Source of the DNA: a virus
IMG/VR virus record: IMGVR_UViG_3300032132_000733
Coordinates: 1 to 33,725 of that record
DNA length: 33,725 nucleotides
Strand: one strand, 5' to 3'
Shown here piece by piece: positions 5,196-25,113 of the stretch. Position 1 is the stretch's first letter. The number at the start of each line of letters is the position of its first letter. A program made the translations under genes and the position numbers. The notes under the pieces were generated by a model. It searched no databases, was not told the DNA's origin, and worked only from the letters and a program-made list of their open reading frames with translations.

Positions 5196-5951
5196 TTAAA
5201 CGAGCGCTAAAACTACGTTATTCACGAGGTCCGTGACCACATCATCCGCTTGTGATTGGACGACAACGACGGCCGAAGGATGTGCGGCGATGTTCCGCTT
5301 GTCCAATTTTTCCTTCAAAATCTTGAAAACGTTGGAGTTGTATAGGCCAGCGGTGTTGCAAATTTCAATTACCTGAGATTCCTTCAGCTCATCTAGGAAC
5401 TCATCGTACTTCGTAATCTTTAAACTCGTCATCTTTTGGTACCGCTTTGAAATAGCGGCGTTGAATTTATCGAGCCTGTCCTGGTCCTTCAAAATCCAAT
5501 CGAGCAAATGTGCGTAGGCGAGATTCCAGGTCATCACGATACAGGCCCGGTACGCTTCGACCTTGTAGCACTTCAGTGCTTCGTCCAAGAACGTGCGCTC
5601 CGCGACGTTTGGAATCTGAGCGGGGAGGGCTGCGAGAATGTTACTCACCTGGATAATACTCTGATGAACTCCGTAACGCTTATCCAATTCGACGCGGACG
5701 GCGCGCTCTAATTTGAAGTTGCCTTGAACCCGCATCAAATCCTTATAGTCCACCATGCGCGGCAAATACTTAGACACCGGAGGGTCAACCAGATGCAGCT
5801 CGCTAAAGCACGCCCGGACGGCGGCGTTATCGAAAGTTTCTCGATTACGGTACGTGTGAAGAAACCAGGCGAACAGCTTTATCCTGTCGCGGGGCTGAAG
5901 CTGGTCGAAACCGCTAACCTGGCTGACCAGGTCACGCAGCTCCATTGCCAC
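5196..5951 (-). CDS. HEPN-domain protein with N-terminal winged-helix-like region (putative RNase/toxin)
   Basis: The 251-residue protein has two parts. Residues about 15-95 look like a winged-helix module (RDRIKLFAWF, AAVRACFSEL, YLPRMV, then a wing ending LERAVRVELDKRYG). Residues about 118-245 fit a HEPN four-helix fold: FLDEALKCYKVEAYRACIVM is the typical long helix, and RNIAAH at 219-224 is an R(N)x3H motif (Rx4H), the signature of HEPN ribonucleases. HEPN RNases act as toxins or abortive-infection effectors. The gene start overlaps the upstream winged-helix gene by 20 bases, so the two are one translationally coupled unit. The exact family is not one I can name, and RNase activity is inferred from the motif only. 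Confidence 0.66.
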   Translation of the reverse strand: MAMELRDLVSQVSGFDQLQPRDRIKLFAWFLHTYRNRETFDNAAVRACFSELHLVDPPVSKYLPRMVDYKDLMRVQGNFKLERAVRVELDKRYGVHQSIIQVSNILAALPAQIPNVAERTFLDEALKCYKVEAYRACIVMTWNLAYAHLLDWILKDQDRLDKFNAAISKRYQKMTSLKITKYDEFLDELKESQVIEICNTAGLYNSNVFKILKEKLDKRNIAAHPSAVVVVQSQADDVVTDLVNNVVLALV

Positions 5952-7210: not shown

Positions 7211-7424
7211 TCCCTCGCTTTCTCATTGTTTCTCTTTTCTCCGTTCTTCCCACCTTCATTTCCCGAGCTAATCTATTTCTTAGGTCGCGGAGCGCAAATG
7301 CAGTGACCTGCGCATTGGTCACTAATCCTGTCAGGGCTTTTGTCTCTTCAAGCACCGATCGAATATCCGGATAAAGGCGCTCTGTTAGAAGGATCTGTAT
7401 TTGTTGGGCGCGCGCGCGTGTCAT
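7200..7424 (-). CDS. Small helical protein of the recombination operon, unknown
   Basis: The 74-residue product is highly charged and helical, ending in a basic tail (REMKVGRTEKRETMRKRGNDL). It overlaps the ERF gene by 4 bases upstream and the next gene by 11 bases downstream, and that coupling is the main reason to accept it. There is no signal peptide, cysteine motif or recognisable domain. It could be a small nucleic-acid-binding accessory protein. Confidence 0.55.
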   Translation of the reverse strand: MTRARAQQIQILLTERLYPDIRSVLEETKALTGLVTNAQVTAFALRDLRNRLAREMKVGRTEKRETMRKRGNDL

Positions 7425-7969
7425 GCGCTCTGCCCCAAACTCTCACTCATCGCCTTCACACAAGCCCGGATCGTCCATTTCTCGGTCTTGGTGAGCGCTG
7501 CTGCTGTTGAATGCTTTATGTCAGCAGTTCGGAGGTCTTCGAGCGTCTGCGCGGAAAAAATGTCTGCGCATCGATCTTCAAGCGTGGTGGTCGCCGATTG
7601 TGCGTCGTCATCTTCGGTGACGAGGCCGAGCAGCGCCATGATGGAGTACCGCCGACCATAGGTGAGGGCAGAGCCATAAGCTTGAGGGTCATTGGGCTTG
7701 GCTACAGGTACATCAATTGTGCTGCTGATGTATTCCCCGTTTGAATACATCAAAACGGTTTGTAGCGCGGCTCCGTGGCCTTGACCCATAGTTGTCTGAA
7801 CTAGAGAGAAGCCGTGCTTCTCAAGAATTGGTCGTACCACACTCATCACTGTGGTTAGCGATGCATATTTGCCACGCGCACCATCTGTATCCTTGTGGAT
7901 GGGCTTCAGGTCGGCCTGCAGTTTTATAAGCGCGGCGGGCAGTTCTTTAAGGTTCTCCGATTTGAACAC
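7421..7969 (-). CDS. erf: ERF-family single-strand annealing protein
   Basis: The 182-residue protein is a clear ERF superfamily recombinase. It has YASLTTVMSVVRPILEKHGF (about 36-55), a GEYISSTIDVPVAKPNDPQAYGSALTYGRRYS block (77-108) containing the family's hallmark Q.YGSA.TY.RRY, and LLGLVTEDDDAQ. ERF proteins bind single-stranded DNA and promote annealing for phage recombination and genome circularisation. The C-terminal 60 residues are probably an oligomerisation or SSB-contact tail. The GTG start has AAGAAG upstream. It heads the leftward operon and is divergent from the gene at 8091. Confidence 0.9.
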   Translation of the reverse strand: MFKSENLKELPAALIKLQADLKPIHKDTDGARGKYASLTTVMSVVRPILEKHGFSLVQTTMGQGHGAALQTVLMYSNGEYISSTIDVPVAKPNDPQAYGSALTYGRRYSIMALLGLVTEDDDAQSATTTLEDRCADIFSAQTLEDLRTADIKHSTAAALTKTEKWTIRACVKAMSESLGQSA

Positions 7970-9159: not shown

Positions 9160-9699
9160 ATGTCGCGGAAATTGCTCGTTTCGATTGTTATTGGCTCGTC
9201 CTTGTTCTCGATTGCAGCAGAAGCCCGTGGCGGCGGAAAGTTTCTCGGTTCATTAGTTGCCAGAGGGGCGGGCAGAGCAGCTGCTGGCGCCGGATCTTCA
9301 TCGTCTGGTGGCATTAAGACCTACGGCCCAGACGTGCTAACTGTTTCCCAGCTTGCTCAGTGCATCAGGACGGCAGGAAAGCTGGACGACGACAGCACGC
9401 GTATCGATGCTGAACGCATCAAGATTGATGCCTGGTCCTCCTCCATCAATACTTCCAAACTGCAGGTGAATGCCGCCGAGAGTGTCGTAGACACGAGAAG
9501 CCAGCGCAGCGTGGATGCATTTAACGTGCTGGTCGATCGGCATAATCAGCTTGTGCAGAGAGGCAAGGCCGCAGGGCTTACTTTCAATGCCGGGGTTAGC
9601 AGTCACAATTCAGATGTGAACGCCTACAACGCGGAATGCGGCAAAAACTATTATCAAAGTGATTTGGATGCCGCCCAGACGCTCGCCAGCGCTAAATAG
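9160..9699 (+). CDS. Secreted helical protein, unknown function
   Basis: This 179-residue protein has a Sec signal peptide with predicted cleavage at AEA before RGGG (about residue 23). A glycine/alanine/serine-rich flexible segment (24-50) follows, then a long helical region (60-175) with a heptad-like distribution, suggesting a coiled coil. There are two cysteines (one near position 67 in LAQCIRT, one in NAECGKN near 166). GGCAGGGG precedes the ATG at 9160. A sequence upstream at 9113-9123 (ATAGGCTGCCT) is identical to one before the H-NS-like gene at 1109. It may be an exported phage protein modifying the envelope; no family is recognised. Confidence 0.65.
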   Translation: MSRKLLVSIVIGSSLFSIAAEARGGGKFLGSLVARGAGRAAAGAGSSSSGGIKTYGPDVLTVSQLAQCIRTAGKLDDDSTRIDAERIKIDAWSSSINTSKLQVNAAESVVDTRSQRSVDAFNVLVDRHNQLVQRGKAAGLTFNAGVSSHNSDVNAYNAECGKNYYQSDLDAAQTLASAK

Positions 9700-10204: not shown

Positions 10205-11359
10205 CTAGTTCCGGGCTTTCTGCTTTAGTTCGAGCAGACCTGATGAAAGTGTAAGGCTATATCGGGACAGGAAGCTCATACCCAGTAAGCCGTCTGTTTC
10301 GGAACCAAAAGCGTCCTTACTGCCTACCGCGATTAAAAGTGGAACGTTCGCAGCCGTAGCATCTCCAACCTTTACGGATTGGGCATAGCCTGTCGCTTGC
10401 TGCATCAAGCCTCCGACGACCTTTACCTCAACAAGGTTAGAAGAGTCGGGAGCGATCCTAGCCCTTGCAGCCATTTCCGGCGTTATTGCTATTGACGTAG
10501 CTCCGGTGTCTAGGATCATTCGGGCGGGCGAGCCATTGATCATTACGTCAATGCGGTTATTCGGCGGAATGATTATGCGAGCAGATCCGTTGGCGTAAGT
10601 TGCTGCGCAGCTACCCTTGCGCGAATACTCTGAGATCAATTGAGAAATCTGCGCGGTCTGTCTCTTCTGCACATTAAATGAGAGATAAGTTTCAAGCGGA
10701 GCAATCGCCTCGCAGGATTTTCCAATTTTATCGTACATCAACGAGACGTAATAAAATTGAGACAAGGCAACATTTGATAGGTCAGGAAAGAGTTGCAATG
10801 AGCTCATGTAATCGGCGAGTGCTGCCTTGTATTCCTTCGCGCGTTCATGCGCTTGTCCGCGCCAGAAGCGATAGTCTTTGCTGGCGGTATCGTACTTTAC
10901 AAGGGCGTCGGCGACTCGAATGGCAGCCTTGTGGTCGCCAACCCTTGTGTAAGCGTTGAAAGCCGATCGCAGCATCTCATCGGATTGAGTGCACTCATTG
11001 CTAAACGCCTCAAGACTCATGGCGCTTTCGCGTGGAAATCCAGCTTTTTCCATGAGCTCGGTCAGCGAAGTAAATGCAACACTGTCACATGGTTCACGCT
11101 TCACCTGGTCAAGATAGCGAGCTGCTTGTCCAAATCTTTCGAACTCTCGTGGGATACTAATCCCCAGGCGCTCATAGACTTTTTTGTAGGGATTGAAGGC
11201 TTCTGAGTTGGTATAGAAATAATATCCGCCGTAGCCAACCGCGGCGACGACCGCTACGAGGCCGGCGAGAATTGGAAGGAAGCGACTTTTCTCTTCTTGA
11301 TAAATTGTATTTGGACGCTCGGCTTTAAAATCGGCGCCAGAACCGCTGTCACTATTCAT
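10205..11359 (-). CDS. Membrane-anchored TPR protein with retropepsin-like aspartic protease domain
   Basis: The 384-residue protein has a hydrophilic N-terminus, one transmembrane helix (about 27-49) and a helical TPR-like region (about 90-250; e.g. AYTRVGDHKAAIRVADALVK and KEYKAALADYMSSLQLFPD are tetratricopeptide-like). The C-terminal domain is retropepsin-like (about 258-378): RIDVMINGSPARMILDTGA puts the catalytic D284-T-G, and DGLLGMSFLSRYSLTL is the second hallmark of clan AA single-domain proteases. With an N-in topology the protease would face the periplasm. Such proteins are bacterial but very unusual in a phage-like region. It is monocistronic on the minus strand. Substrate unknown. 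Confidence 0.82.
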   Translation of the reverse strand: MNSDSGSGADFKAERPNTIYQEEKSRFLPILAGLVAVVAAVGYGGYYFYTNSEAFNPYKKVYERLGISIPREFERFGQAARYLDQVKREPCDSVAFTSLTELMEKAGFPRESAMSLEAFSNECTQSDEMLRSAFNAYTRVGDHKAAIRVADALVKYDTASKDYRFWRGQAHERAKEYKAALADYMSSLQLFPDLSNVALSQFYYVSLMYDKIGKSCEAIAPLETYLSFNVQKRQTAQISQLISEYSRKGSCAATYANGSARIIIPPNNRIDVMINGSPARMILDTGATSIAITPEMAARARIAPDSSNLVEVKVVGGLMQQATGYAQSVKVGDATAANVPLLIAVGSKDAFGSETDGLLGMSFLSRYSLTLSSGLLELKQKARN

Positions 11360-13023: not shown

Positions 13024-13063
13024 GAGTTGTCACGTGAGGCGCAGTTGTGAGCATAATCAGCGG

Positions 13064-13435
13064 GTGAGCAGCGGAAAATCAGTGGCGAGACGATCGGACG
13101 GGATGCCGGTTGGCAAGCCGTTTGTGAAGGGCAAATCCGGGAATGAAGCCGGACGCCCGCCTGGCATTCCCAATCTCGAAGCCCGCGTTCGTGCTCTGTT
13201 GGATGGTGACACCGAACTTCCCAAGCCAATAGCTGACGCTATCCGATCGCAGTGTGGCGAAGAGCGGAAGGCGATCGATGCTGTCTTCATCGTAGGCCTG
13301 CTGCAGGCTTTGCAGGGTGATAAGGCGTGGGCTCAGTTCATTGTCGAACGCGGGTGGGGCAAGGTCGCCGATAAGATCGAAGGCGGCGAAACGCCCATAG
13401 CCCACACCTTCACACTCAAAATCGATAACGGCTAA
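13064..13435 (+). CDS. Small terminase-like protein (DUF5681)
   Basis: From the GTG at 13064 the product has 123 residues. The N-terminal GKPFVKGKSGNEAGRPPGIPN matches the KG.SGNP.GRP.G start of DUF5681 proteins that precede large terminases and are proposed to be small terminase subunits. The rest is helical (DAIRSQCGEERKAIDAVF, DKAWAQFIVERGWGKVADKIEGG). It may bind the packaging site and regulate the large subunit. The upstream start at 13034 is possible but lacks support. The large terminase follows 7 bases after the stop. Confidence 0.68.
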   Translation: MSSGKSVARRSDGMPVGKPFVKGKSGNEAGRPPGIPNLEARVRALLDGDTELPKPIADAIRSQCGEERKAIDAVFIVGLLQALQGDKAWAQFIVERGWGKVADKIEGGETPIAHTFTLKIDNG

Positions 13436-13442
13436 GCCGTGA

Positions 13443-14636
13443 GTGGAATACACCTACGTCCGGCCTAAACTTTACGCCAAGCAGTCTGCGGCGTTTTTCA
13501 ACGACTCCCGGTATTCATGGATTGAAGGCAGCACCAAGAGCGGAAAAACCGTCTCGTGCATGGCCTGGCTGTTTGAGCAGGCGCTGCTCTACGGCAAACC
13601 CGGTCGCCAGTTTTGGTGGGTGGCTCCGGTATTCGCCCAGGCGAAGATTGCTTATGGCCGGATGAAGCGCGGACTGCCTCACGCGCTTATCCGCTGCAAC
13701 GACACCGAACAGACCATCACCATCATTCCCAACGGCGCCATCATTTCCTTTAAGTCGGGGGAGAAGCCGGACAACCTGTTTGGTGAGGATGTCTGGGCGG
13801 CGGTGATGGATGAAGCCTCCCGGATGCGTGTTGAGGCTTTCCACGCCGTCCGTTCAACGCTTACCGCCACTCGCGGCCCCATCCGTATCATCGGGAACGT
13901 GAAAGGCCGTAAAAACTGGTTCTATCTCGGCTGCCGTAAAGCAGAGGGCGGTGAAGAGGGGCACGTCTACCACAAGATTATCGCAACCGACGCGGTCGCG
14001 GCTGGCGTCTTCCCCCAGGAGGAGTTAGACGATGCAAGGCGCGCGCTGCCTGATGCAGTATTCCGTGAGCTGTATCTCTGCGAGCCATCCGATGACGGTG
14101 GCAACCCGTTCGGTATCAAATACATCCGGTCAAACATTGCTCCGATAAGCAACAAGGCGCCTGTCTGCTACGGCTCTGACCTTGCCAAGTCCATCGACTG
14201 GACCGTGATCCATGGTCTCGATGAGGACGGATGCACCGCTGAGCACCACAGATTCCAGTTGCCATGGAAGCCGACCATCCAGCGCCTGCGCCTGATCTGC
14301 GGTAGCACCACAACCGCGGTGGACAGCACGGGTGTCGGCGATCCAATCGTTGAAGAGCTGCAAACCAATGCGGACAACTTCATCGGCTACAAGTTTACCC
14401 AGCAAAGCAAGCAAATGCTGATGGAAGGATTAGCAGTTGCCATCCAGCAGAATGAGATTCAATATCCCGAAGGCGTAATCGTCTCCGAGTTGGAAAGCTT
14501 TGAGTACGAATACACCCGAACCGGCGTTCGCTACACCGCACCGGAAGGCCAGCACGACGATTGTGTGATGGCACTTGCCCTGGCCGTGTACGCGAAGAGG
14601 AACCGGGCGCCTGAACCGCAAGGATTGCTATTGTAG
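13443..14636 (+). CDS. terL: Large terminase subunit (TerL)
   Basis: The 397-residue protein carries an ATPase domain with Walker A GSTKSGKT (29-36), Walker B AAVMDEAS with D123/E124, and a coupling motif GNVKGRKNWF. It also carries an RNase H-like nuclease domain with GSDLAKSIDWT (D246), TAVDSTGVGDP (D294) and GQHDDCVMALA (D372/D373). It packages DNA into the prohead and cuts it. It is slightly shorter than most family members (about 420-560 residues), but all catalytic motifs are present. It starts with GTG, 7 bases after the DUF5681 gene, and the portal starts two bases after its stop. Confidence 0.95.
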   Translation: MEYTYVRPKLYAKQSAAFFNDSRYSWIEGSTKSGKTVSCMAWLFEQALLYGKPGRQFWWVAPVFAQAKIAYGRMKRGLPHALIRCNDTEQTITIIPNGAIISFKSGEKPDNLFGEDVWAAVMDEASRMRVEAFHAVRSTLTATRGPIRIIGNVKGRKNWFYLGCRKAEGGEEGHVYHKIIATDAVAAGVFPQEELDDARRALPDAVFRELYLCEPSDDGGNPFGIKYIRSNIAPISNKAPVCYGSDLAKSIDWTVIHGLDEDGCTAEHHRFQLPWKPTIQRLRLICGSTTTAVDSTGVGDPIVEELQTNADNFIGYKFTQQSKQMLMEGLAVAIQQNEIQYPEGVIVSELESFEYEYTRTGVRYTAPEGQHDDCVMALALAVYAKRNRAPEPQGLLL

Positions 14637-14637
14637 T

Positions 14638-15978
14638 TTGAAATTCTGGAGTCCGTTCCGCAAGAAGGCGTTGCCTGCACCGGGCTCCAACGCGTTCTTC
14701 GTCACCGGTCTCTCCAGTGGCGTCACCCGCACCATCAAGACATATTCAGACGAGGGGTATGAGCAGAACCCCATCGTCTACGCCTGCATCTCCCGGATTG
14801 CGGAAGCATGCTCCAGCGTAAAGCTCGAAGTCCACAAGGTGGCTGCTGATGGCAATCGCACCGTTCTCAATAAACACCGCCTACTGGATCTGCTGGCCAG
14901 ACCCAATCCGACACAGTCCTGGACCGATTTCATCCAGGAACTGGTCGCTTGGCACCGGATTGCGGGCGAAGCCTTTATACTGCGTCTCCCGGAGAAGGGG
15001 CCTGCTGCGGAGCTGTATCTGCTCGACCCGTCATCCATGGATATCGAGAAGGACAAGAACGGCAGCGCTGTTCCACTGGCTTACCTGTACGGCACTGGTG
15101 AGAAGCGGAAGCGCTTCCCGGTCAACGTCGTCACCGGGGAAAGCCAGGTCTTGCATATCAAGACCTTCAACCCGTCCGATCCGTTCCGTGGCCTTCCTCC
15201 CATGAAAGCCGCTGCCCGTGCTGTGGATACCCATAATCACGGCGCGCAATGGAATTCCAACCTGTTGCTGAACGGCGCGCGTCCGTCCGGTATCGTTGAA
15301 TTTGATAAGGTTTCACCGACCGAGGCTACCCTGTCGCAGCTGCGTGAGTTCTTCAAGAAGGCTTGGCAGGGCGTCAAGAACGCCGGCAACGTGCCTATTC
15401 TCACCGGAGGCGCCAAGTTCACTGCACTCTCTCATACGCCTAAGGACATGGATTTCGAGAAGAGCATGGGCGAGGCGGCAAAAAACACCGCCCTCGTGCT
15501 CGGTGTGCCGTTGCCTCTCGTCACCATGGAAGCCTCCACGTTCTCGAACATGGAAGCCGCCGAGGAACGGCTATGGGTCGATACCATCCTGCCACTGCTG
15601 AACCTCATCATGGGGTCGCTGACCAACTTCCTGCTCCCGCTGTACGGCAAGACCAGCGATGCGAAGGAAGTGCTTGCCTACAATTCCGATAGTGTGCCTG
15701 CACTGGAGGCCCGTAGAGAGCGTTTGTTCAAGCGGATGGGGCAGGCGGTCAAGGATACCTTGATTACGCCTGATGAAGCCCGTGCAGAATGCGGCTTCGA
15801 GGAAGTGGGTGGGCCTGCTGGTTCGCTGCTCGTGGCCGGCACGATGAAGACGCTCGATCATATCAACGACAAGCCCGCTGCACCGATCGCGCCCGCTGAT
15901 ATTGGGAAAGCGTTGAAGTCCTGCGGCTACACCGATGAGGAAGTGACCAAGGTGCTTGCGGAGCAGTTCGGTGTTTAA
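14638..15978 (+). CDS. HK97-family portal protein
   Basis: The protein starts at TTG 14638 (LKFWSPFRKK), right after the terminase stop, giving 446 residues; an ATG 63 bases earlier would overlap the terminase in another frame and is rejected. It has the HK97 portal pattern: VTRTIKTYSDEGYEQNPIVYACISRIAEA, then LLARPNPTQSWTDFIQELVAWHRIAGEAF, ARPSGIVEF and FSNMEAAEERLWVDTILPLL. Portals form the dodecameric ring at the capsid vertex through which DNA passes. Context with the terminase and head genes is standard. Confidence 0.95.
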   Translation: MKFWSPFRKKALPAPGSNAFFVTGLSSGVTRTIKTYSDEGYEQNPIVYACISRIAEACSSVKLEVHKVAADGNRTVLNKHRLLDLLARPNPTQSWTDFIQELVAWHRIAGEAFILRLPEKGPAAELYLLDPSSMDIEKDKNGSAVPLAYLYGTGEKRKRFPVNVVTGESQVLHIKTFNPSDPFRGLPPMKAAARAVDTHNHGAQWNSNLLLNGARPSGIVEFDKVSPTEATLSQLREFFKKAWQGVKNAGNVPILTGGAKFTALSHTPKDMDFEKSMGEAAKNTALVLGVPLPLVTMEASTFSNMEAAEERLWVDTILPLLNLIMGSLTNFLLPLYGKTSDAKEVLAYNSDSVPALEARRERLFKRMGQAVKDTLITPDEARAECGFEEVGGPAGSLLVAGTMKTLDHINDKPAAPIAPADIGKALKSCGYTDEEVTKVLAEQFGV

Positions 15979-15995
15979 CAACAGAAAGTGAGGAT

Positions 15996-16133
15996 ATGGA
16001 CGAGGTTCGTATTGCGAGATGTGTGGTTGCAGCCGTGTGCTTCATTGGCTCTGCTGTTTTAGCTTACCGGGAAAAGACTGGTTGGGGTTGGCTATGCTTC
16101 TGCGGCTTTATCGCCACTCCTCCGATTGAATGA
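15996..16133 (+). CDS. 45-residue membrane protein between portal and MuF-like gene
   Basis: A 45-codon frame with AGGAT upstream encodes a hydrophobic segment (about 9-23, CVVAAVCFIGSAVLA), a YREKTGWGW turn and a second short hydrophobic stretch (LCFCGFIATPP). Its stop overlaps the start of the next gene (ATGA at 16130-16133), so translation is coupled. It lies at a position where phages often carry tiny unexplained genes. Function unknown. Confidence 0.6.
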   Translation: MDEVRIARCVVAAVCFIGSAVLAYREKTGWGWLCFCGFIATPPIE

Positions 16134-16888
16134 GCATCAAAGCTGCCATTGAGAAGTCACGCTGGGAAGCGCTGATGCAGTCGGTCGAAGGGCCGTATGC
16201 TGCCGAGGTCTTCGACGAGAAAAACCGCTACATCACCGAAGCCTCCACCGTCTTCCCAAGTACCCAACGTCTCGAAGACAAGCTGTTCGATTATCACCGC
16301 GCCGCCATGACCGCGATTGCGGTAAAGTACCAGGGCATCGCCATACGCATCGCCCTGGTCGAGACATTGAAGCAGGTGAGGGCGCTGCAGGTCAAAACCG
16401 ATTGGGATAAGCTGTGGCTGTACCTCATCCGTAAATGGATGGCTGAGTACGGCTTACAGGCGGCAAAGGAGACCGCGGAAACCACCCGCGCTGATATACA
16501 GACGATTATTGATGTGGCATTGGCTCACGATGTCGAGTTCAACCCCGTCGCTGTCGCAACCGAGCTGCTGAAGGCGAGAGACCTGAGCGCGCCGCGGGCC
16601 GAGACCATCGCCCGCACCGAAACCCACAACGCGATGATGTTCGCCAGTGTCGAGGGTGCCAACGCAGTCGCCCGTGAAGATGGGATAGCGCTGAACAAAA
16701 AGTGGGTGCCCGTGCAGGATGGACGCTCCCGCGTATCTCATGCTGCCATGGCTAGCCATCCCGCTATCGCGATGGATGCTGACTTCAACGTGGGCGGTGT
16801 TGCGATGTCGCGTCCAGGTGATCCGCGTGGTGGTGCAGCCAACTGCATCAACTGTCGCTGCGTCCTCGCATATGAGGTCGTTCAATAA
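16130..16888 (+). CDS. MuF-like head morphogenesis protein
   Basis: The 252-residue protein is helical for about 150 residues and ends in a MuF domain. ARTETHNAMMFASVEGA is followed by KKWVPVQDGRSRVSHAAM, DADFNVGG, and PGDPRGGAANCINCRCVLAY, which is the conserved cysteine-rich ending. MuF-like proteins are minor head proteins that sit near the portal and may be injected. No C-terminal toxin is fused here. The ATG overlaps the stop of the small membrane protein. Confidence 0.9.
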   Translation: MSIKAAIEKSRWEALMQSVEGPYAAEVFDEKNRYITEASTVFPSTQRLEDKLFDYHRAAMTAIAVKYQGIAIRIALVETLKQVRALQVKTDWDKLWLYLIRKWMAEYGLQAAKETAETTRADIQTIIDVALAHDVEFNPVAVATELLKARDLSAPRAETIARTETHNAMMFASVEGANAVAREDGIALNKKWVPVQDGRSRVSHAAMASHPAIAMDADFNVGGVAMSRPGDPRGGAANCINCRCVLAYEVVQ

Positions 16889-16945
16889 TTTCTTGCGCGG
16901 TGAATCAGGTTGTGAGTCTAATGAGTGAAGAGAAAGTTTCGATGA

Positions 16946-17620
16946 GTGACGCTGAATAAGAAGCATATCGAGTTCGCTGCCGAGTTTAAGGCAATCGGTG
17001 ATGCCGACAGCGGCGAGTTTGAAGGCTACGGATCGGTATTCGGAAACGAAGATTCCTACGGCGAGATTGTAGAGAAGGGCGCGTTTGCCGAGAGCTTGAA
17101 AAAGCACGGGCTACCCAAGCTTCTGCTCCAGCACTCGTCCTGGATGGTTGGTGGTATCTACTTAGAAGCCCGCGAAGACGAAAAGGGCCTTTATGTTCGC
17201 GGCAAGCTCAACCTAAAGGTACAGGCCGCATTTGAAACCTACGAGCTTCTGAAGCAAGGCGCACTGAGCGGTCTCTCCATCGGCTTCAAGACCCTCATCC
17301 ACGAATACAATCGAGATACCGAGGTCGTGCACATCAAGAAGGTGCGCCTCTACGAAGTTTCTGTTGTGACGTTCCCCGCCAACGAGAAGGCGACCATTTC
17401 AGCGGTTAAGTCCGCACCGGAGAGCATCCGGGACTTTGAAAGATTTCTGCGAGAGGCAGGATACAGCCAAGAGGACGCGAAACTAATCGCCTCCAAAGGC
17501 TACCGTGCATTCGAGACCCGCCGCGAGGGTGGTGACGCTGCATTGGCACTGGACGCGCTGCAAGGCGCACTAGACCAATTAAGAAAGTCACTCCCAAGTG
17601 GACCACACACAAGCAATTGA
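16946..17620 (+). CDS. HK97-type prohead protease
   Basis: The 224-residue protein matches the U35 prohead protease family: FEGYGSVFGNEDSYGEIVEKGAF (26-48), the catalytic histidine in LLLQHSSW (H63), the serine in GALSGLSIGF (S108 or S111) and the acidic residue in RLYEVSVVTFPANE (E137). It cleaves the delta domain of the capsid protein during maturation. It starts at GTG. Its stop lies within the capsid gene, overlapping by 23 bases, so the pair is coupled. The C-terminal 55 residues are a probable cleavable tail. Confidence 0.92.
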   Translation: MTLNKKHIEFAAEFKAIGDADSGEFEGYGSVFGNEDSYGEIVEKGAFAESLKKHGLPKLLLQHSSWMVGGIYLEAREDEKGLYVRGKLNLKVQAAFETYELLKQGALSGLSIGFKTLIHEYNRDTEVVHIKKVRLYEVSVVTFPANEKATISAVKSAPESIRDFERFLREAGYSQEDAKLIASKGYRAFETRREGGDAALALDALQGALDQLRKSLPSGPHTSN

Positions 17621-18839
17621 GAAGCTTACCGAGTCGGTAGGCCTCATCACCAAGGGCTTCGATGAGCTGAAGAATGCTCACGAAGTCAACAAAACGACTG
17701 GTGGCGCAGCCGCCCAGGCGATGATTGACAAGCTGGCCGATGATATCGGCATCAAGCTTGAAAGCGTCCAAACCCAGCAACAAAAGCTCGAGGCCGCAAT
17801 GCAGCGCGTTTCCGTCACTGACGGCAGCGATGCAGCCAAGGCGACCCGCGCCATGGAGAAGAAGGCGCTCACCACCTATCTGCAAGGCGGCGACAAGGCG
17901 TTCCTGAAACTGAATGCCGACGAGCAGAAAGCCATGTCTACGGATGACAACCCGAATGGCGGTTATCTCGTTCCGGTCGGCACCCTTGGCATGATCAATG
18001 GCCGTATCTTCGAAACGTCGCCCATGCGCAAGCTGGCGACTGTGCGTCCGACCGCGCTTAAGTCCGTCACCGTCGATATCGACGATGACGAAGCCGATGG
18101 TCGCTGGGAGGGTGAGGGCACCTCTCAGGGTGAAACCGATACCCCGGAAACCGGCCAGATCGAAATCGTCGCCCGAAAGATGGAAGCTGAACCCCGCGTC
18201 ACTGTCGAGGATCTGCAGGACTCCGCGCTTGATCTGGAACCCTGGCTCGCTGGCAAGGTGTCCGACAAGTTCAGCCGCATGGAGAACGCAGCGTTCGTCA
18301 ACGGCACTGGTCCGCTGAAGCCCCGTGGCTTCCTGACCTACGGTGCATGGTCCAACGCCGGCGTCTATGAGCGTGGCAAGATCGAGCAGCTGCTCTCTGG
18401 CAGCACCTCTGATGTCACCCCGGAAAACCTGATCGACCTGCAGGGCGCGTTGCTCGAAGGTTATCAAAATGGTGCCAACTGGAGCATGAACCGCTCCGTC
18501 CTCACCAAGATCATGAAGATCAAGGGCACCGATATGTACCGGTTCCTGAATCTTCAGCCCGCGACTGGCCCACAAGGTCAGGTGCTCGGTGCGGTGATGA
18601 GCTTGCTGGAGAAGCCCGTCGTGCTGATGTCCGACATGCCGACCATCACCTCCGGCTCCCTGTCGATTGCCTACGGCAACATGAGCAAGAGCTACACCAT
18701 CCTCGATCGTGTCGGTGTGAGCGTTCAACGTGACCCCTACACCAGCAAGGGCCGCGTGAAGTTCTACACCACGAAACGAGTAGGTGGTGCGGTGACCAAC
18801 TTCGATGCTCTGAAGCTCATGAAGTTCGCGACCAGCTAA
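17598..18839 (+). CDS. HK97-type major capsid protein
   Basis: The 413-residue protein has a helical N-terminal delta domain (about 1-110, coiled-coil-like) and then the HK97 fold. It contains NPNGGYLVPVGTLGMINGRIFETSPMRKLATV, RWEGEGTSQGETDTP, EIVARKMEAEPRVTVEDLQDS and the FVNGTGPLKPRGFLTY loop typical of this family. The GTG start is inside the protease gene. It forms the icosahedral shell after removal of the delta domain. A very long antisense frame across the gene is a codon-bias shadow. Confidence 0.95.
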   Translation: MDHTQAIEKLTESVGLITKGFDELKNAHEVNKTTGGAAAQAMIDKLADDIGIKLESVQTQQQKLEAAMQRVSVTDGSDAAKATRAMEKKALTTYLQGGDKAFLKLNADEQKAMSTDDNPNGGYLVPVGTLGMINGRIFETSPMRKLATVRPTALKSVTVDIDDDEADGRWEGEGTSQGETDTPETGQIEIVARKMEAEPRVTVEDLQDSALDLEPWLAGKVSDKFSRMENAAFVNGTGPLKPRGFLTYGAWSNAGVYERGKIEQLLSGSTSDVTPENLIDLQGALLEGYQNGANWSMNRSVLTKIMKIKGTDMYRFLNLQPATGPQGQVLGAVMSLLEKPVVLMSDMPTITSGSLSIAYGNMSKSYTILDRVGVSVQRDPYTSKGRVKFYTTKRVGGAVTNFDALKLMKFATS

Positions 18840-18863
18840 GATAAACAACGAAAGTCCAACACA

Positions 18864-19274
18864 ATGGCTTCCTTTGATATGCACAGTGACATCCTCGCCA
18901 AAGTGGCGAAGAACACTGCTGCGATTGCCTCCAGCACCACAACTGCGGGTGTCATCATCGACACCCTCGGTTATGAGGCGCTGGAATTCCTGATGCAGTC
19001 CGGCGCATGGACGGACGGCACCTACACCCCTCTGCTTGAGGAAAGTGACGACTCCGGCCTGTCCGGCTCCAACGCCGTTGCGGATGAAGATCTGCTCGGC
19101 CTGGAGTCTGCTGCGGCGATCGGTGCTGCCAACACCGTGAAGCGCATCGGTTATCGCGGTCACAAGCGCTACGTGCGCCTGTCCATCGTGAGCGCTGGCG
19201 TCACCACGGGTGCCACCATCGGTGCGACCGCCATCCTTGGCCGTCCCGCCGTTCGTCCGGCTCCTGCCAACTAA
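18864..19274 (+). CDS. Putative head structural or decoration protein
   Basis: The 136-residue protein follows the capsid gene directly. It has an alanine/threonine-rich N-terminus (TTTAGVIIDTLGYEALEFL) and a beta-rich body with LLEESDDSGLSG and KRIGYRGHKRYVRLSIV, ending in a proline-rich tail. Proteins of this type and position are common in HK97-type phages and usually form capsid or head components, perhaps decoration. No exact family is claimed. Confidence 0.6.
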   Translation: MASFDMHSDILAKVAKNTAAIASSTTTAGVIIDTLGYEALEFLMQSGAWTDGTYTPLLEESDDSGLSGSNAVADEDLLGLESAAAIGAANTVKRIGYRGHKRYVRLSIVSAGVTTGATIGATAILGRPAVRPAPAN

Positions 19275-19322
19275 AACGGGGCGGGTAACACCGCCCTCCA
19301 ATTTTAAATGAAAGATACTGCA

Positions 19323-19544
19323 ATGGTCGCAATCAAAATGACCCGCAACAGCCGCGGTTCGCCCGACGGGCACTCCGTAAAGCACTATGCGGAAGGCGAA
19401 GAATACGATGTGCCGGAATCTCTGGCTAAGGACTTCGTCGAGACCGACAAGGTTGCTGAGTACGTGACCGAGAAGGTCGCGGAGAAGGCTGACAAGCCCA
19501 CTAAGAACAAGGTCGAGAAGGTCGCGGAGAACAAGGCCGTCTAA
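19323..19544 (+). CDS. Small head-region protein with charged C-terminal tail
   Basis: The product has 73 residues from the ATG at 19323. MVAIKMTRNSRGSPDG, then HYAEGEEYDVPESLAKDFVE, matches a small family encoded between capsid and connector genes in many siphoviruses. The ending is a lysine/glutamate repeat (VTEKVAEKADKP, NKVEKVAENKAV), probably helical. An earlier ATG at 19308 is possible. Function unknown, presumably structural or assembly-related. Confidence 0.58.
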   Translation: MVAIKMTRNSRGSPDGHSVKHYAEGEEYDVPESLAKDFVETDKVAEYVTEKVAEKADKPTKNKVEKVAENKAV

Positions 19545-19545
19545 G

Positions 19546-20162
19546 TTGAACCGCCGTTCGCCCGTTCTCGTCAGCGCGCCGGCCACTGAGCCGGTTGCGT
19601 TGTCGGATGCCAAGACCTTTCTCCGGGTCGATGGTAGCGAGGACGACGCCCTGATTACCTCACTGATCGCGACCGCCCGCCGCGCCTGTGAGGAATACAC
19701 GAAGCGGGCCTTCATTACACAAACATGGAAGCTGGCTCTCGATCGGTTTCCTTGCGATGAAGACTGGGATGAACTCGAATATATGCTGGGCCTTTCGGCT
19801 CAACGCCCAATCCAGCTTCCCCGCCAGCCAATTCAGTCCATCGCCTCCGTCAAAACCACCGACGCTTCCAATACCCAAGCCACTGTTGCGCTGAGACATA
19901 CACCCTCGATACATCTGGTAGCCGCGTCCTGCTGAACGACGGTTTCATGTGGCCGTCGGATTTACGTGAAGCCGCGGCGGTCGAGGTCGTCACCATCAAC
20001 GGATACGGCGATGACGCAGCGGATGTGCCCGAACCCATCAAGCAGGCCATCCTGCAATACGTTTATTCGATGTTTTACAGCAAGCAATGCAGTGACCTAC
20101 CCGAGGGCTGCAAATCGCTTCTGGCGCCGTTCTGCGCAGCGGAGGCGTTCGGTGCATGGTAG
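19546..20162 (+). pseudogene. Head-tail connector (gp6-like), split by an apparent one-base frameshift
   Basis: The first frame (TTG 19546 to a stop near 19935) matches gp6-like connector proteins: SAPATEPVALSDAKTFLRVD, then ACEEYTKRAFITQTWKLALDRFP, then IQSIASVKTTDASN. Continuity is lost around 19888-19891, but the -1 frame continues the family pattern: YTLDTSGSRVLLNDGFMWPSDL, then VEVVTINGYG, DVPEPIKQAILQYVYSMFY, to a stop at 20160-20162. A missing G at GCGGCT to GCGCT would explain it. There is no slippery sequence, so a deletion or an assembly error is likelier than programmed frameshifting. The next gene overlaps the true stop (ATG 20156), which supports the longer reading. Confidence 0.75.
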
Positions 20163-20533
20163 CTTGCAAGTGTGGCGAGGATTTTGGCTCCAACGCCAAT
20201 AACCGCATCATCGTTCAAACCAAAACCCTTGTTGCCGACAACGCAGGCGGCTGGGTGGAATCGTGGGCGGATGCCCTGACCCTTTGGGCGGTGATTGAGC
20301 CGATGTCGGGTAGGGAGATGTTCATCAGCTCCCAGCTTCAAAGCCGGGTCGATGCCCGTATCACCATCCGCTACCAGTCCTCCCTGGCTGATACGACCGA
20401 AGGTTCCAAGTTCCGCGTCAAGTTCGGTACGCGCATATACAATGTGAAGGCGGTCAAAAACCTCGCCGACGACATGAAGACCGAAGGCAAGCGGTATCAG
20501 CAGCTTCTCTGCACCGAAGGGGAGCCGTCTTGA
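20156..20533 (+). CDS. Head-tail adaptor/stopper protein
   Basis: The 125-residue protein matches the SPP1 gp16-like head-tail adaptor family. It has a beta barrel with NRIIVQTKTLVADNAGGWVESWADALTLWAVIEPMSGREMF, then ARITIRYQS and RIYNVKAVKNLADDMK. It seals the portal-connector complex to the tail. The start overlaps the end of the connector gene by 7 bases. Confidence 0.82.
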   Translation: MVACKCGEDFGSNANNRIIVQTKTLVADNAGGWVESWADALTLWAVIEPMSGREMFISSQLQSRVDARITIRYQSSLADTTEGSKFRVKFGTRIYNVKAVKNLADDMKTEGKRYQQLLCTEGEPS

Positions 20534-20974
20534 GTGGCTGTCCGGAACGCCGACAAAATCATCCGCAGGCTGGCTCAGCTACCCATTGATACGCGCCGTG
20601 GTATCGGAACCGCTCTCGCCGTCTCCGTTGTTGAGATGGATGCCTACGCCAAGAAGAAGATCCAGGGTGGGGCGAGGAGCGGTCGCACCTATCGCCGTCG
20701 CACCGTCAGCCATAAAGCATCAGCGCCTGGCGAGTTTCCGAAGACCGATACCGGTCAGCTCGTGGCATCGCTGTATTTCAAGGTGGCTGCGAACAAGCTC
20801 TCCGCTTTCTTCGGCACCAAGCTCAATTATGGGAAGTATCTCGAATATGGCACTAGCCGCATGCGGGCTCGTCCGTGGCTACACCCAACGCTGAAGGCCA
20901 ACACGAAAGCCATTCGCGAGAGAATAAGGGCTGCCGTAGCAGAGGCGCTGAGGAAAGCGCAGCGCCGTGGATAG
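20534..20974 (+). CDS. HK97 gp10-like tail-completion/neck protein
   Basis: The 146-residue protein starts at GTG, directly after the adaptor stop. Its ASAPGEFPKTDTGQLVASLYF and LEYGTSRMRARPWLHPTLKAN match the HK97 gp10-like family, basic proteins of the head-tail joining region. The N-terminus is helical and basic. It overlaps the next gene by 8 bases. Confidence 0.85.
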   Translation: MAVRNADKIIRRLAQLPIDTRRGIGTALAVSVVEMDAYAKKKIQGGARSGRTYRRRTVSHKASAPGEFPKTDTGQLVASLYFKVAANKLSAFFGTKLNYGKYLEYGTSRMRARPWLHPTLKANTKAIRERIRAAVAEALRKAQRRG

Positions 20975-21362
20975 CGCTCTTGCACTCATCGAGGCTGTTA
21001 TCGCTACGCTGAAGGCTGATACCGCCTTGGCGGCATTGGTTGGCGATCGGGTTTATACCGATGTCCAACAGAAAGCGGCGTTCCCATATCTGGTTATCAG
21101 CGTGGACAGCGAAGCCTTCGCTGCAAATGACTTCAGCGGCCAATCGCACTCACTGCGCCTCCAGGCGTTCAGCCAGAAGCCCGCGGTGACGGAAGCGCTG
21201 GGTATTCGCAAAGCAGCACTCGAAGCGCTTGACCGGAAAGAGGGCGATATCGCGCTCTCCGGACTCGTGAAGTGCGAATACTCAGGTTCAAGCACGATGT
21301 TTCAGGAGGACGATGGGAAAACATGGCAAGCCATCGGCGAAATTGAAGTGATCGTTGTTTGA
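20967..21362 (+). CDS. DUF3168 neck/tail-completion protein
   Basis: The 131-residue protein has the DUF3168 pattern. LIEAVIATLKADTALAALVGDRVYTDVQQKAAFPYLVISVDSE is followed by LRLQAFSQKP and the C-terminal strand IGEIEVIVV. The family is the SPP1 gp17-like tail-joining protein. A GTG start overlaps the gp10-like gene. Confidence 0.85.
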   Translation: MDSALALIEAVIATLKADTALAALVGDRVYTDVQQKAAFPYLVISVDSEAFAANDFSGQSHSLRLQAFSQKPAVTEALGIRKAALEALDRKEGDIALSGLVKCEYSGSSTMFQEDDGKTWQAIGEIEVIVV

Positions 21363-21418
21363 TGTTGCACGAAGGAAAAATTTGACTCACGATGAACCAT
21401 AAAGAAAGGGTCCGCTAA

Positions 21419-21826
21419 GTGGCTCCACAAAAAGGACGCGCAGTCCTCATTAAATACAACACGGGCACAACTATCTTTGCCGCTATCGGCGGTGCACGTG
21501 AAATCACCCTCACCATTGCCAACGAACCGGTCGATGTCACCAACGCGGATAGCGCTGGTGTTCGTCAACTGCTGGAAGGTGCAGGCGTCAACTCGGTCAG
21601 CATCAAGCTGCAGGGCGTCTACGTCGATGATGCAGCGCTCGAAGCACTTCGCACCGATGCTGCCACCAACGTCCACCGAAAGTTCCAGCTCACCATTCCT
21701 GGCACCAACACGGTGACCTATGAGGGCATATTCATGATTGCTTCCTTCGAGGAAGCTGGCTCCTACAACGGCGCCATGACCTACAACATTACGCTCGAAA
21801 GCGCGAGCGCTGTGACGATCACCTAA
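21419..21826 (+). CDS. Major tail protein (TP901-1 family)
   Basis: The 135-residue protein begins APQKGRAVLIKYNTGTT and contains FAAIGGAREITLTIANEPVDVTNADSAGVRQLLEGAG, the signature of TP901-1-type tail tube proteins, then TYEGIFMIASFEEAGSYNGAMTYNITLESA. It forms the tail tube hexamer rings. GTG start; its stop overlaps the start of the next gene. The preceding 56-base gap (21363-21418) probably holds its ribosome binding site (AAAGGG). Confidence 0.92.
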   Translation: MAPQKGRAVLIKYNTGTTIFAAIGGAREITLTIANEPVDVTNADSAGVRQLLEGAGVNSVSIKLQGVYVDDAALEALRTDAATNVHRKFQLTIPGTNTVTYEGIFMIASFEEAGSYNGAMTYNITLESASAVTIT

Positions 21827-22170
21827 TGGCTGACGCTCTTCGCAACGAGGTTGGCATCGACCTCGATGGACAAACCCGCACCATGCGGGCCACGTTCGCT
21901 TCGATCCGTGGTATCGAACGCGACCTCAAGACCAACCTTGTACCGCTGATTGAGAAGCTGGGTCGTGGTGATGTTGGTATCGAGCAGGCTGCCGTTATCG
22001 TCTTCCACGGTCTGCGCGGTTTCGGAGATACCGAGCTGAACCTTGACCAGGTCGGTGAAGCGATTCTCAAGACCGGGCTCGGTTCCGTTATGATGCCTGT
22101 GGTCGAATTCCTTTCTCAAGCCATGCAAGGCGTGACGCTGGGAAAGCCGCAGGAGGCAGCCCCCGTCTAA
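21826..22170 (+). CDS. Tail assembly chaperone (GTA gp10-like)
   Basis: The 114-residue protein has a beta strand ADALRNEVGIDLDGQTRTMRATFASIRGIERDL and a helical body (EQAAVIVFHGLRGFGDTELNLDQVGEAIL), as in the GTA gp10-like tail proteins of alphaproteobacterial phages. It should bind the tape measure during tail assembly. Its start overlaps the tail-tube stop. Five C residues just before its stop could allow -1 slippage into the following frame. Confidence 0.75.
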   Translation: MADALRNEVGIDLDGQTRTMRATFASIRGIERDLKTNLVPLIEKLGRGDVGIEQAAVIVFHGLRGFGDTELNLDQVGEAILKTGLGSVMMPVVEFLSQAMQGVTLGKPQEAAPV

Positions 22171-22175
22171 CCACG

Positions 22176-22379
22176 CTGCCGTGGGAGGACATCATGTCCT
22201 CCGCGCTGGGGATACTGAAGTGGCAGCCTGAAGTGTTCTGGGGCAGCACGCTTTACGAATACACTGCGGGCATGAAGGGCCACTTGCTCTCCCAAGGCAT
22301 CAGCACTACTGAGCCGATGACAAGAAACGAATACCTCGCAATGAAGCGAGAGGACGACAAGAGAAAGCGAGGGCATTGA
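22176..22379 (+). CDS. Second tail assembly chaperone (TAC_6-like), start uncertain
   Basis: The protein has the family's LPWEDIMSSALGILKWQPEVFWGSTLYEY core. The usual PW.D.M segment begins upstream of the only ATG (22194), so either a non-standard CTG start at 22176 or -1 frameshifting from the preceding chaperone is required. At least 61 residues follow from 22194. CCCCC at 22160-22164 is a candidate slip site, because the CCC codon can re-pair one base back. Such -1 fusions are typical of tail chaperones. The stop overlaps the tape-measure TTG. Confidence 0.62.
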   Translation: MPWEDIMSSALGILKWQPEVFWGSTLYEYTAGMKGHLLSQGISTTEPMTRNEYLAMKREDDKRKRGH

Positions 22380-24322
22380 GTTTCGATCCGCTTCTCGTCG
22401 AGATTAAAGCTACCGATAGCGGCTTCACGGCTGCCATCGTCAAGGCCCAAGGCCAAATCAAGCGTTTCGAGACCGAAACCAACCAGAGCGTTGCCTCAGT
22501 CAGCAACGTACTTGGACGCCTGCGTACGCAGGTACTGGCGTTCGTGTCTGTGTGGGGTGCCTTCCGCCTAGGTAAGGGCTTGGTCGATGCCGGCGTTCAA
22601 ATGCAGCAGCTCACTGCGAAGATGGGTGCTGCGACCGGCAACGCTGAGATTGCAGCCGCATCACTGAAGTTTGTTAGGCAGGAAGCCGAAAGGCTCGGTC
22701 TTGATTTTCGTTCAACCGCAGATGGCTTCGCCAGCTTTGCCGCGTCGGCGCTGCGTTCTGGCCTCACATTCGAGGAAACGAAAAACATTTTCACCGGAGT
22801 AAGCGAAGCCGCAACCGGAATGCGCTTGTCGGCTGAGCGTACCTCACTCGTGTTCGTGGCTCTCTCGCAGATGGCCAGCAAGGGCACCGTCAGCATGGAG
22901 GAACTGAAGCAGCAGTTAGGGGAAAGCTTGCCTGGTGCCATGCAGGTGTTCGCGAAAGCGATGGGCAAGGGGAATGCTGAGTTCATCAAGATGATCGAGA
23001 ATGGGCAAGTCACTACCCGCGATCTCATCAAGCTGGGCGATGGTCTGCGTAAGGACTTCGGCGGAGCAGCTGAGGAAGCATCTAAAGGCGCTCAGGCAGC
23101 TTTCAACAGGTTCGGCAACGCGCTCTTCGAGCTTCAGACGAAAGTAGCAAATAACGGGTTCTTGGACAGCGTAACGAAGTCCGTTCGGGATTTGACAACC
23201 CAGCTAAACGATCCCGCAACGATAGAGGGATTGAAGGCGTTCGCGGAATACCTCGGGGATATTGTGAGTGTCGCCGCAAAGGCTGCATCAGCCATCGGAA
23301 ACACCCTGACCCACTTCCGAGACAGGCAACTTGCCTTTAAGGAACTGCGCGCAGAAGGCAAGTTCTTCGTCAGCGAGGATCAGATTCAAGACAAGGTTCA
23401 AACCATCCAGCTCCGTCGTCAGGTGTTGAATGCGCCTTATACGCCATCCACGCCACCGCCTTCCGTTGATCCGAATTACACACTTGGAAAGAGCAGTGCG
23501 CCCGCAGTTTCTGCCGCAGCCCAGAAAGCCGCAGATATGCGCGAGCAGTTGCGTAACCGCGTCCAGTCCATGAATGCCGGCCTTATCACCGAAGACGATC
23601 CGAATAAGGTCAACAGCGCCCAAGCGATGGCCTCGCTGAACAAGCGTTACGAGGAAGAGCAGGATTTGCTTGATAAGGCTCTCAAGAAAAAGGCGATAAC
23701 CGATGAGGAGTTCAAGGAAAACTCCCTCAAGGTTGAGCTGGATTATCAGGCCCGCATGGCAGAAATCCGTAAGCAGTACCGCGATGAGCTGCTGAGTGAT
23801 GAGCAAGCCTTTGCTGAAGGTTTTCTCGGTATCGAGCTGACCCTTCAGGATAAATCGCTAACGGAGCAGGGCCGTGGCTTCCGCGACTCCATCCAGCAGG
23901 CTGCCCAGCACAATCGAACCTTCTTCCAGCTTGAAAAAGCCGCTGCCCTGGCGCGCGCTCTGCTGGCTGCACGTCAATCAGTAGTCGATGCCTACCGTTT
24001 CGGTACGTCTTTGGGTGGTCCCGTCCTCGGTGCTGCATTTGCCGGTGTTGCCGCTGCAGCTCAAGCCGCCAACATCGCTGCTATCGCTTCAACCTCGTTC
24101 GGCGGAGGTGGCGGGGTGTCTTCGTCTGGCGGGGGTGGAGGCGGTGGTATCTCATCGGACGCCAGCAGCGCAGGTTCGCAGAAGCCGGATATCGGCGCGA
24201 AGTCGATATACATCAATCTCCAGGGCGATGATCAGGAGATTTGGTCGAAGAATAGCGTCCGCAAGCTCATTGAAAAGATTAACGACGCCGTGGGTGACGG
24301 CACAAGAATTGCGTTCGCGTAA
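22376..24322 (+). CDS. Tail tape measure protein
   Basis: The 648-residue protein has a hydrophobic N-terminal helix region, then the tape-measure domain (about 75-230). That domain contains LKFVRQEAERLGLDFRSTADGFASFAASAL and TSLVFVALSQMASKGTVSMEELKQQLGESLPGAMQVFAKAMG. A long helical centre (about 290-530) follows, then a glycine-rich linker near 575-595 and a short C-terminal domain. At about 1.5 Angstrom per residue this suggests a tail near 95-100 nm. It starts at TTG, overlapping the previous stop. Confidence 0.9.
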   Translation: MSFDPLLVEIKATDSGFTAAIVKAQGQIKRFETETNQSVASVSNVLGRLRTQVLAFVSVWGAFRLGKGLVDAGVQMQQLTAKMGAATGNAEIAAASLKFVRQEAERLGLDFRSTADGFASFAASALRSGLTFEETKNIFTGVSEAATGMRLSAERTSLVFVALSQMASKGTVSMEELKQQLGESLPGAMQVFAKAMGKGNAEFIKMIENGQVTTRDLIKLGDGLRKDFGGAAEEASKGAQAAFNRFGNALFELQTKVANNGFLDSVTKSVRDLTTQLNDPATIEGLKAFAEYLGDIVSVAAKAASAIGNTLTHFRDRQLAFKELRAEGKFFVSEDQIQDKVQTIQLRRQVLNAPYTPSTPPPSVDPNYTLGKSSAPAVSAAAQKAADMREQLRNRVQSMNAGLITEDDPNKVNSAQAMASLNKRYEEEQDLLDKALKKKAITDEEFKENSLKVELDYQARMAEIRKQYRDELLSDEQAFAEGFLGIELTLQDKSLTEQGRGFRDSIQQAAQHNRTFFQLEKAAALARALLAARQSVVDAYRFGTSLGGPVLGAAFAGVAAAAQAANIAAIASTSFGGGGGVSSSGGGGGGGISSDASSAGSQKPDIGAKSIYINLQGDDQEIWSKNSVRKLIEKINDAVGDGTRIAFA

Positions 24323-25113
24323 TGGGCTTCATCGTTCTCCCATCCATCTCCGCAGGCACTTCCAAGGCCCGCATCGGTTACGAAAACCATCTGGAGACCG
24401 CAAGCAGTGTGGTGGCGACGACTGAGGATGCGGATTTCCCGGTAGCAAACGTCTACGACTGGCTCACGTTCGATTTCTTTAAGCCGACTGGAACGGGCAC
24501 CACCAACATCGATGCAACCTTTGCAGAGCCCGTTACGGCGGATTACTTCGCTTATTACAACCAAGACCTCTTCAACCTGTCAGGCATCATCAAGCTCCAG
24601 TATTGGGATGGCTTGGCGTACCAGAACTGCTTCGCCGCGATCTCGCCTGCGGATAATTCGCCGCAGATGAAGGTGTTCGCTGCGAAAACATCAGACAAAT
24701 GGCGCGTCGTCGTCACATGCTCCAGCGTCTTCAGTCTGGGGTGCGTGTCGTTCGGAACACACCTTGCTCTGCAATACGGAATGTATCTCGGCTGGACGCC
24801 TCCGGTTCTCGCCCGCGATACCCAGCTCGTCACCAGCCGTTCTGATGGCGGTGCGTTCCTCGGCCGGAGCGTGATTGCCAAGGGCATCAAGACAGACCTC
24901 ATCCTGCAGTATGCAACCGATCTATGGACGCGGACATACTGGACGCCGCTTATCAAGCATATCGAGCAGAAGCCGTTCTTCTTCATGCCCAATGTCGAGG
25001 ATTACCCAACTGAAGCCGCTTACTGCTGGGTTGAAGAGGCGATACCGCCCCCGACGCATACCCACTTCGGCTTCATGGGAACGACGATCCCGATCAAGGG
25101 TCTCGTTGAGTGA
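24322..25113 (+). CDS. Distal tail protein
   Basis: The 263-residue protein follows the tape measure by overlap (stop and ATG share a base). It is beta-rich, with NHLETASSVVATTEDADFPVANVYDWLTFDF and paired tryptophan/tyrosine strands, and ends KPFFFMPNVEDYPTEAAYCWVEE. In the order tape measure, distal protein, hub it corresponds to the Dit-like position of siphoviruses. The sequence is not close to a family I can name with certainty. Confidence 0.6.
   Translation: MGFIVLPSISAGTSKARIGYENHLETASSVVATTEDADFPVANVYDWLTFDFFKPTGTGTTNIDATFAEPVTADYFAYYNQDLFNLSGIIKLQYWDGLAYQNCFAAISPADNSPQMKVFAAKTSDKWRVVVTCSSVFSLGCVSFGTHLALQYGMYLGWTPPVLARDTQLVTSRSDGGAFLGRSVIAKGIKTDLILQYATDLWTRTYWTPLIKHIEQKPFFFMPNVEDYPTEAAYCWVEEAIPPPTHTHFGFMGTTIPIKGLVE

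Follow-up and report, generated by a model that had tools for sequence, protein, structure and literature searches.

What does an HIV-protease-like enzyme do as an extra gene in a virus of soil bacteria? The case arises in a viral record, 33,725 bases long (here 'the window', meaning the whole stretch of DNA that was analysed), one gene of which joins a transmembrane (TM) helix, a TPR-like arm and a retropepsin-like protease domain in a single protein. To our knowledge, few substrates of bacterial retropepsins are known, and gene linkage provides a short list of candidates for this one. Relatives occur on mobilizable DNA elements, and two homologues adjoin genes for exported proteins of kinds that the virus has too, which suggests a mobile envelope-modifying kit.

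The window is an HK97-type siphophage. PHROG matches include head morphogenesis and neck genes besides the terminase, portal, head maturation protease, major head, major tail, tape measure and tail fibre genes that give substance to the 'phage-like region' of the initial annotation; further genes encode a replication initiation protein, an ERF annealing protein, an endolysin, an HNH protein and an ArdC-like protein. The record is taken to be a phage because its head-tail block (13443-26843, plus strand) is common to sister phages. Both ends of the window fall on start codons, which suggests that the record was trimmed at gene calls. No integrase was found within the window, and two sister records carry one near an end; we infer that the phage exists as a prophage. 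An Rfam search of the window gave no match.

The retropepsin gene lies at 10205-11359 on the minus strand, a strand left unstated when the interval was first noted. The plus strand here is full of stops, and an open frame of 384 aa fills the interval exactly on the other. Pfam, the structure model and the alignment all agree with the earlier description of a TM helix, a TPR-like region and clan AA motifs (DTG and DGLLGMSF) in one protein. The single TM helix, the anchor, spans codons 27-51 (11207-11281, minus strand; mean hydropathy 2.14 from residue 27). The helical region follows at codons 59-249 (10613-11185, minus strand) and the protease domain at codons 257-380 (10220-10591, minus strand), with the codon of the catalytic Asp284 at 10508-10510 and the hydrophobic-hydrophobic-Gly (psi loop) motif D356-G-L-L-G360 at 10280-10294, both on the same strand. 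Clan AA membership follows from residues 270-366, which match PF13975 gag-asp_proteas at 1.5e-19 (70.8 bits; gathering cut-off 28.2) and PF13650 at 7.4e-19 (68.7 bits; gathering cut-off 24.3). TPR models match residues 135-193 at 2.7e-6 yet stay under their gathering scores (TPR_16, 28.1 against 32.7; TPR_14, 22.4 against 23.5), so the arm is called TPR-fold and not a Pfam TPR member. VIA Z scores of 14-15 to TPR domains over ~120 residues are supportive only, as helical repeats generally score high; the VIA list holds TPR structures only, being filled by the arm, and is silent on the protease domain. Against the NCBIfam model TIGR02281 (clan_AA_DTGA) the protease domain scores 47.8 bits (E 1.5e-12), below the curated cut-off of 57.95, and the window protein is therefore not filed under that family. 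PGAP does place full-length homologues there, and the label is carried by Phyllobacterium homologues. A second TIGR02281 match, covering the protease domain alone, is present in four of four genomes checked.

The initial annotation had proposed a fold match to retropepsins as a check, and the predicted structure provides one. The model was built from an alignment of 43 sequences reaching down to ~25% identity and has, as a single chain, a pLDDT of 89.5 and a pTM of 0.80. It consists of one long helix (27-51), a helical arm (59-249) and a beta domain (259-380). In the PDB, Foldseek puts the Rickettsia retropepsin APRc first, with 5c9f at E 1.4e-7 and TMt 0.72 (24% identity over 132 columns), and ranks TPR proteins lower. 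A single D-T-G-A per chain, the L358 L359 G360 psi-loop motif and the retropepsin chain fold of the model all agree with this assignment. Invariant throughout the 43 sequences are N275 G276, D284 T285 G286 A287, D356 G L L G360 and S362 F L. Among close relatives the TPR and protease parts are conserved to a similar degree, as might be expected if the protease domain were vestigial and the protein a TPR scaffold without catalytic activity. This is very unlikely, given that both D-T-G-A and DGLLG are retained down to ~25% identity.

Four cysteines (91, 123, 216 and 251) are also invariant in the alignment, the first three within the TPR-fold region and Cys251 just past its end, and the window protein has no other. 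As C91/C123 and C216/C251 flank helical hairpins in the helix list of the model, two disulfides are likely to staple these hairpins. The near-identical viral copies L005 and L006, discussed below, differ here: L006:2753-3892 is without one of the four conserved cysteines, which the L005 copy retains. The N-terminal anchor is a TM helix in the window protein, a lipobox-like LIAGC in L005 and L030 (the form of Burkholderiales and of the L005 phage) and signal-peptide-like in L016; these types were read by eye from the sequences, crude automated classes being inconsistent (20 of 60 'none'). This variety of anchors across the family fits a periplasmic body, and the protein is predicted to sit at the periplasmic side of the inner membrane. 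Pfam, the model and Foldseek thus support, as probable, the membrane-anchored protease on the periplasmic side that was originally envisaged.

Several known proteins resemble it in part. PerP of Caulobacter crescentus cleaves PodJ in the periplasm. Like family members here it is alphaproteobacterial, but it is a host cell-cycle gene and not cargo, and it is likened by description, being cited in PMC4140852 as a retroviral-type aspartic protease. APRc (RC1339 of Rickettsia conorii; PDB 5c9b, 5c9d and 5c9f) shares the retropepsin-like fold with one DTG per chain and has a membrane-anchored N-terminus with the C-terminal protease outside the cytoplasm (PMC4140852). Unlike the window gene it is a Rickettsia gene and not phage cargo, and that account of it gives three predicted TM helices and makes no mention of TPR. 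RloA and RimB of Pseudomonas are retropepsin-like dimers with DTGA, and RloA is secreted to the envelope; TPR is not mentioned for them either (PMC12239564). RloA and APRc are thus precedents for envelope retropepsins (PMC12239564, PMC4140852). A retropepsin-type fold like that of the window protease domain also appears in three BFVD models of tailed-phage proteins (A0A8S5LJK9, A0A8S5QUR9 and A0A8S5S0H9), which differ in having 12-20% identity over 134-180 columns and, at 142-182 aa among the matches listed, in being too short for the TM-TPR architecture. In view of these models, the initial remark that no tailed phage is known to use such a protease is only partly right. In the open-access PMC literature no paper was found that couples a retropepsin-like protein with a prophage, or a retropepsin with an adhesin and type I secretion.

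Whether the gene is cargo can be judged from related phages, as the initial annotation had advised. Four sister phages (G001-G004) share the head-tail block with the window at 40-82% protein identity, the part 22376-26843 being unseen in G004, a shorter record. The retropepsin gene, together with two genes for exported-looking proteins considered below, is absent from all four sister records, which may be incomplete. For head maturation the phage encodes another protease, of a separate family, at 16946-17620 on the plus strand (PHROG 80, 8.8e-56). From the lack of the gene in the sisters and the separate head protease, the retropepsin gene is read as phage cargo (a 'moron'). The same two facts tell against a morphogenesis protease for capsid or tail proteins, a role that the position of the gene 2 kb upstream of the terminase gene might suggest; the TM anchor and the invariant cysteines, moreover, point to the periplasm, and we give this role next to no probability. 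The GC content of the gene is 50.0% as against 57.0% for 13034-26843, and its neighbours are likewise at 48-54%. Promoter and terminator sites around the gene are about as numerous as in shuffled sequence. Its protein (P0001) has no significant match among PHROG families (best E 0.019).

The retropepsin does not represent a phage family; its family is a chromosomal one from Rhizobiales and Burkholderiales, the orders to which the matches listed in a genome scan belong. GenBank phages gave no match to the proteins P0001, L005 or L016, and viral contigs, searched with P0001 alone, gave none either. In the tree, which like the bit scores covers the matches listed, the window protein groups with L007 (a Bradyrhizobium metagenome-assembled genome, 74% identity) and L199 (68%) within a clade that also contains L200, L201 and L008 (support 99/100). 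L007, the closest homologue among these matches, adjoins core-looking genes, which might mean that host DNA was wrongly included in the viral record or that the assembly is a chimera. Phage genes nevertheless flank the retropepsin on both sides (ERF at 7421-7969, and the terminase gene at 13443 ~2 kb away), DNA similarity between the window and L007 ends at the gene, and a family member is present in a second, unrelated phage, so an artefact of this kind is extremely improbable.

The sole other viral matches among those listed are L005 and L006, copies in a different phage that carries an integrase, a YqaJ recombinase and Mu gp45-like and baseplate J proteins. Their retropepsins nest within Paraburkholderia and Burkholderia sequences, and from this it appears that two unrelated phages acquired family members separately. 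The TM-TPR-retropepsin architecture, annotated and yet undescribed in the open-access PMC literature and collections searched, would then have entered two phage lineages independently. Approximate dN/dS estimates (0.07 for L200/L201; 0.17-0.21 for L005/L030) point to purifying selection; between the window gene and L007 or L199, dS is saturated. A search of the 297 family genomes for the terminase gave none at E 1e-150, though so stringent a cut-off does not establish that it is missing.

The clade of the window protein itself appears to be mobile. It comprises 11 other loci (L007, L008, L199-L202 and L209-L213) at 45-74% identity, and seven of them (L008, L201, L202 and L210-L213) have two type IV coupling proteins no more than ~10 kb away, together with two MobA/MobL relaxases and, mostly, a serine resolvase. 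Two of the seven, L212 and L213, are retropepsin copies in one genome. Gene calls in these loci come from a simple ORF picker, and boundaries and gap sizes are approximate. The L007 and L199 copies look foreign on account of their composition, being AT-rich islands of 50-51% GC in GC-rich chromosomes of 61-62%, and L209 is a 5.9-kb contig too short for its mobile context to be judged. Apart from the copies in the L005/L006 phage, the homologues among the matches listed are chromosomal or lie on mobilizable elements. The repeated capture of the gene by mobile elements suggests that its function helps the element or its host. The mobilizable elements form a family of their own, with cargo of exported and fibre-like proteins.

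The initial annotation also mentioned many small exported proteins nearby. By eye this is plausible for genes at 697, 2275, 4815, 9160, 11973 and 26878, and relatives of two of these lie beside retropepsin homologues in other genomes. The gene at 9160-9699 (plus strand) encodes a small exported-looking protein of 179 aa, and in L209 a relative (32%, E 5e-19) is found on the upstream side of a retropepsin homologue, ~37 bp away. The gene at 26878-27972 (plus strand) encodes an exported-looking IalB-domain protein of 364 aa, and in L210 a relative (39% over full length, E 3e-80) is found on the downstream side of another, ~36 bp away. The IalB-like gene appears to be a clean one-gene insertion between conserved tail genes, as the sisters lack a gene there: homologues of 25110-26843 and 28027-28710, between which it sits in the window, are ~53 bp apart in G001. 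Within the 297 family genomes, where there are eight retropepsin loci, the IalB-like protein has two matches at E 1e-30, the single full-length one being the L210 neighbour, and the 9160 protein has three at 1e-8, one being the L209 neighbour. The chance of landing next door is ~1e-5 to 1e-4 per gene on the assumption of ~5,000 genes per genome, which is small even over the ~35 accessory genes tried, although the pairs to test were picked post hoc and each adjacency is seen in a single genome. A counterpoint to linked function is that cargo genes gather on mobile DNA whether or not they act together. Viral contigs gave no match to either protein. In the window itself neither gene is in an operon with the retropepsin, since the IalB-like gene is 15.5 kb away and 9160-9699 is on the opposite strand.

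These adjacencies lend indirect support to the idea that the retropepsin processes neighbouring exported proteins. Our preferred reading, to which we give an even chance, is that the gene is mobile cargo for an anchored, periplasm-facing, dimeric aspartic protease that cuts exported proteins, with which a prophage would alter the envelope of its lysogen. One N-terminal helix would hold the protein in the inner membrane, and the disulfide-stapled TPR arm and C-terminal retropepsin domain would project into the periplasm. Two copies would dimerise around a common active site to which each contributes its Asp284; the arm would capture exported proteins and the protease would cut them. Likely targets would be the co-travelling exported proteins, above all the IalB-like and 9160-9699 products, and host envelope proteins. 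The protease would act on the lysogen envelope when expressed from the prophage.

The protease might instead serve host fitness only, acting like RloA on the host's own envelope proteins, with the exported neighbours as hitchhikers. Most family members occupy fixed chromosomal positions where relatives of IalB or 9160 are missing, and RloA is reported to affect osmotic tolerance, cell shape and biofilm in Pseudomonas (PMC12239564). Relatives of the phage's own exported genes do, however, adjoin retropepsin homologues twice, in separate genomes; this speaks against the reading, which we take to be possible though improbable. Entry of phages and entry through T4SS both use envelope proteins. A prophage protease, probably periplasm-facing and found on phages and mobilizable elements alike, could thus remove or alter a surface receptor and so block related phages or conjugative elements. 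A weak PADLOC match (PDC-M08B, 22 bits) might be cited for such superinfection exclusion, but it covers the generic protease domain only, and the identity of P0001 as PDC-M08B was rejected as generic similarity. Chromosomal copies without phage links are common, and no receptor or exclusion partner was identified; exclusion is clearly unlikely.

Processing of exported partners, the preferred reading, has also to be set against the gene neighbourhoods of other loci, which vary. Lipoprotein-like genes adjoin the retropepsin or lie close to it in L008, L211 and L213, and in L201 the gene for a 672-aa secreted-looking protein, which shares a domain with an adhesin beside the plasmid homologue L004, adjoins or is near it. 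Beside the retropepsins of L007 and L200, no exported partner is obvious. A further counterpoint is that other clades pair the retropepsin with different genes. In 14 Bradyrhizobium loci of a distant clade (29-32% identity), it lies directly upstream, on the same strand, of a gene for an exported-looking TPR-caspase (PF00656). In Rhizobium, most copies and an L,D-transpeptidase gene are transcribed towards each other; the window has neither of these partner genes. Tentatively, and with a rather low probability, Rhizobiales phages and mobilizable elements may share a portable envelope-processing module, in which the retropepsin travels with its own exported substrates (IalB-like and 9160-type) and would remodel the surface of a new host to the element's advantage. 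In the open-access PMC literature and collections searched, no description of such a protease-substrate pair on phages was found.

Other features of these loci may be recorded. On the Ochrobactrum plasmid pLM19O2 (L004), a retropepsin homologue has the gene for a 2593-aa adhesin on one side and an ABC/HlyD pair for type I secretion on the other, an arrangement that resembles adhesin-processing systems (the LapG-like or autotransporter-processing protease class) by gene proximity in this one plasmid. A general link of the family to giant adhesins and type I secretion was not adopted, as it is clear in L004 only and weak in L017. L016:9923-12823 and other Bradyrhizobium loci combine a TPR-retropepsin and a TPR-caspase, so that what looks like one operon encodes two TPR-armed proteases. 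The window frame at 17406-19715 (minus strand, 769 aa) is antisense to head-protein genes; alignments of the sisters with it are fragmentary, and it is probably a codon-bias artefact. The 251-aa protein at 5196-5951 (minus strand) has a weak PADLOC PD-T7-3 match (24.3 bits) and a match to PHROG 27609. Finally, the phage and the mobilizable elements have other features in common: an ArdC-like antirestriction protein is encoded at 32808-33725 (minus strand) and in a retropepsin-bearing element (L201:387-1539), and signal-peptide-like, fibre-like proteins of the window (29441-30550) and of L211 (11534-13150) share a short GNVSA.KF.GDG..LTG repeat.
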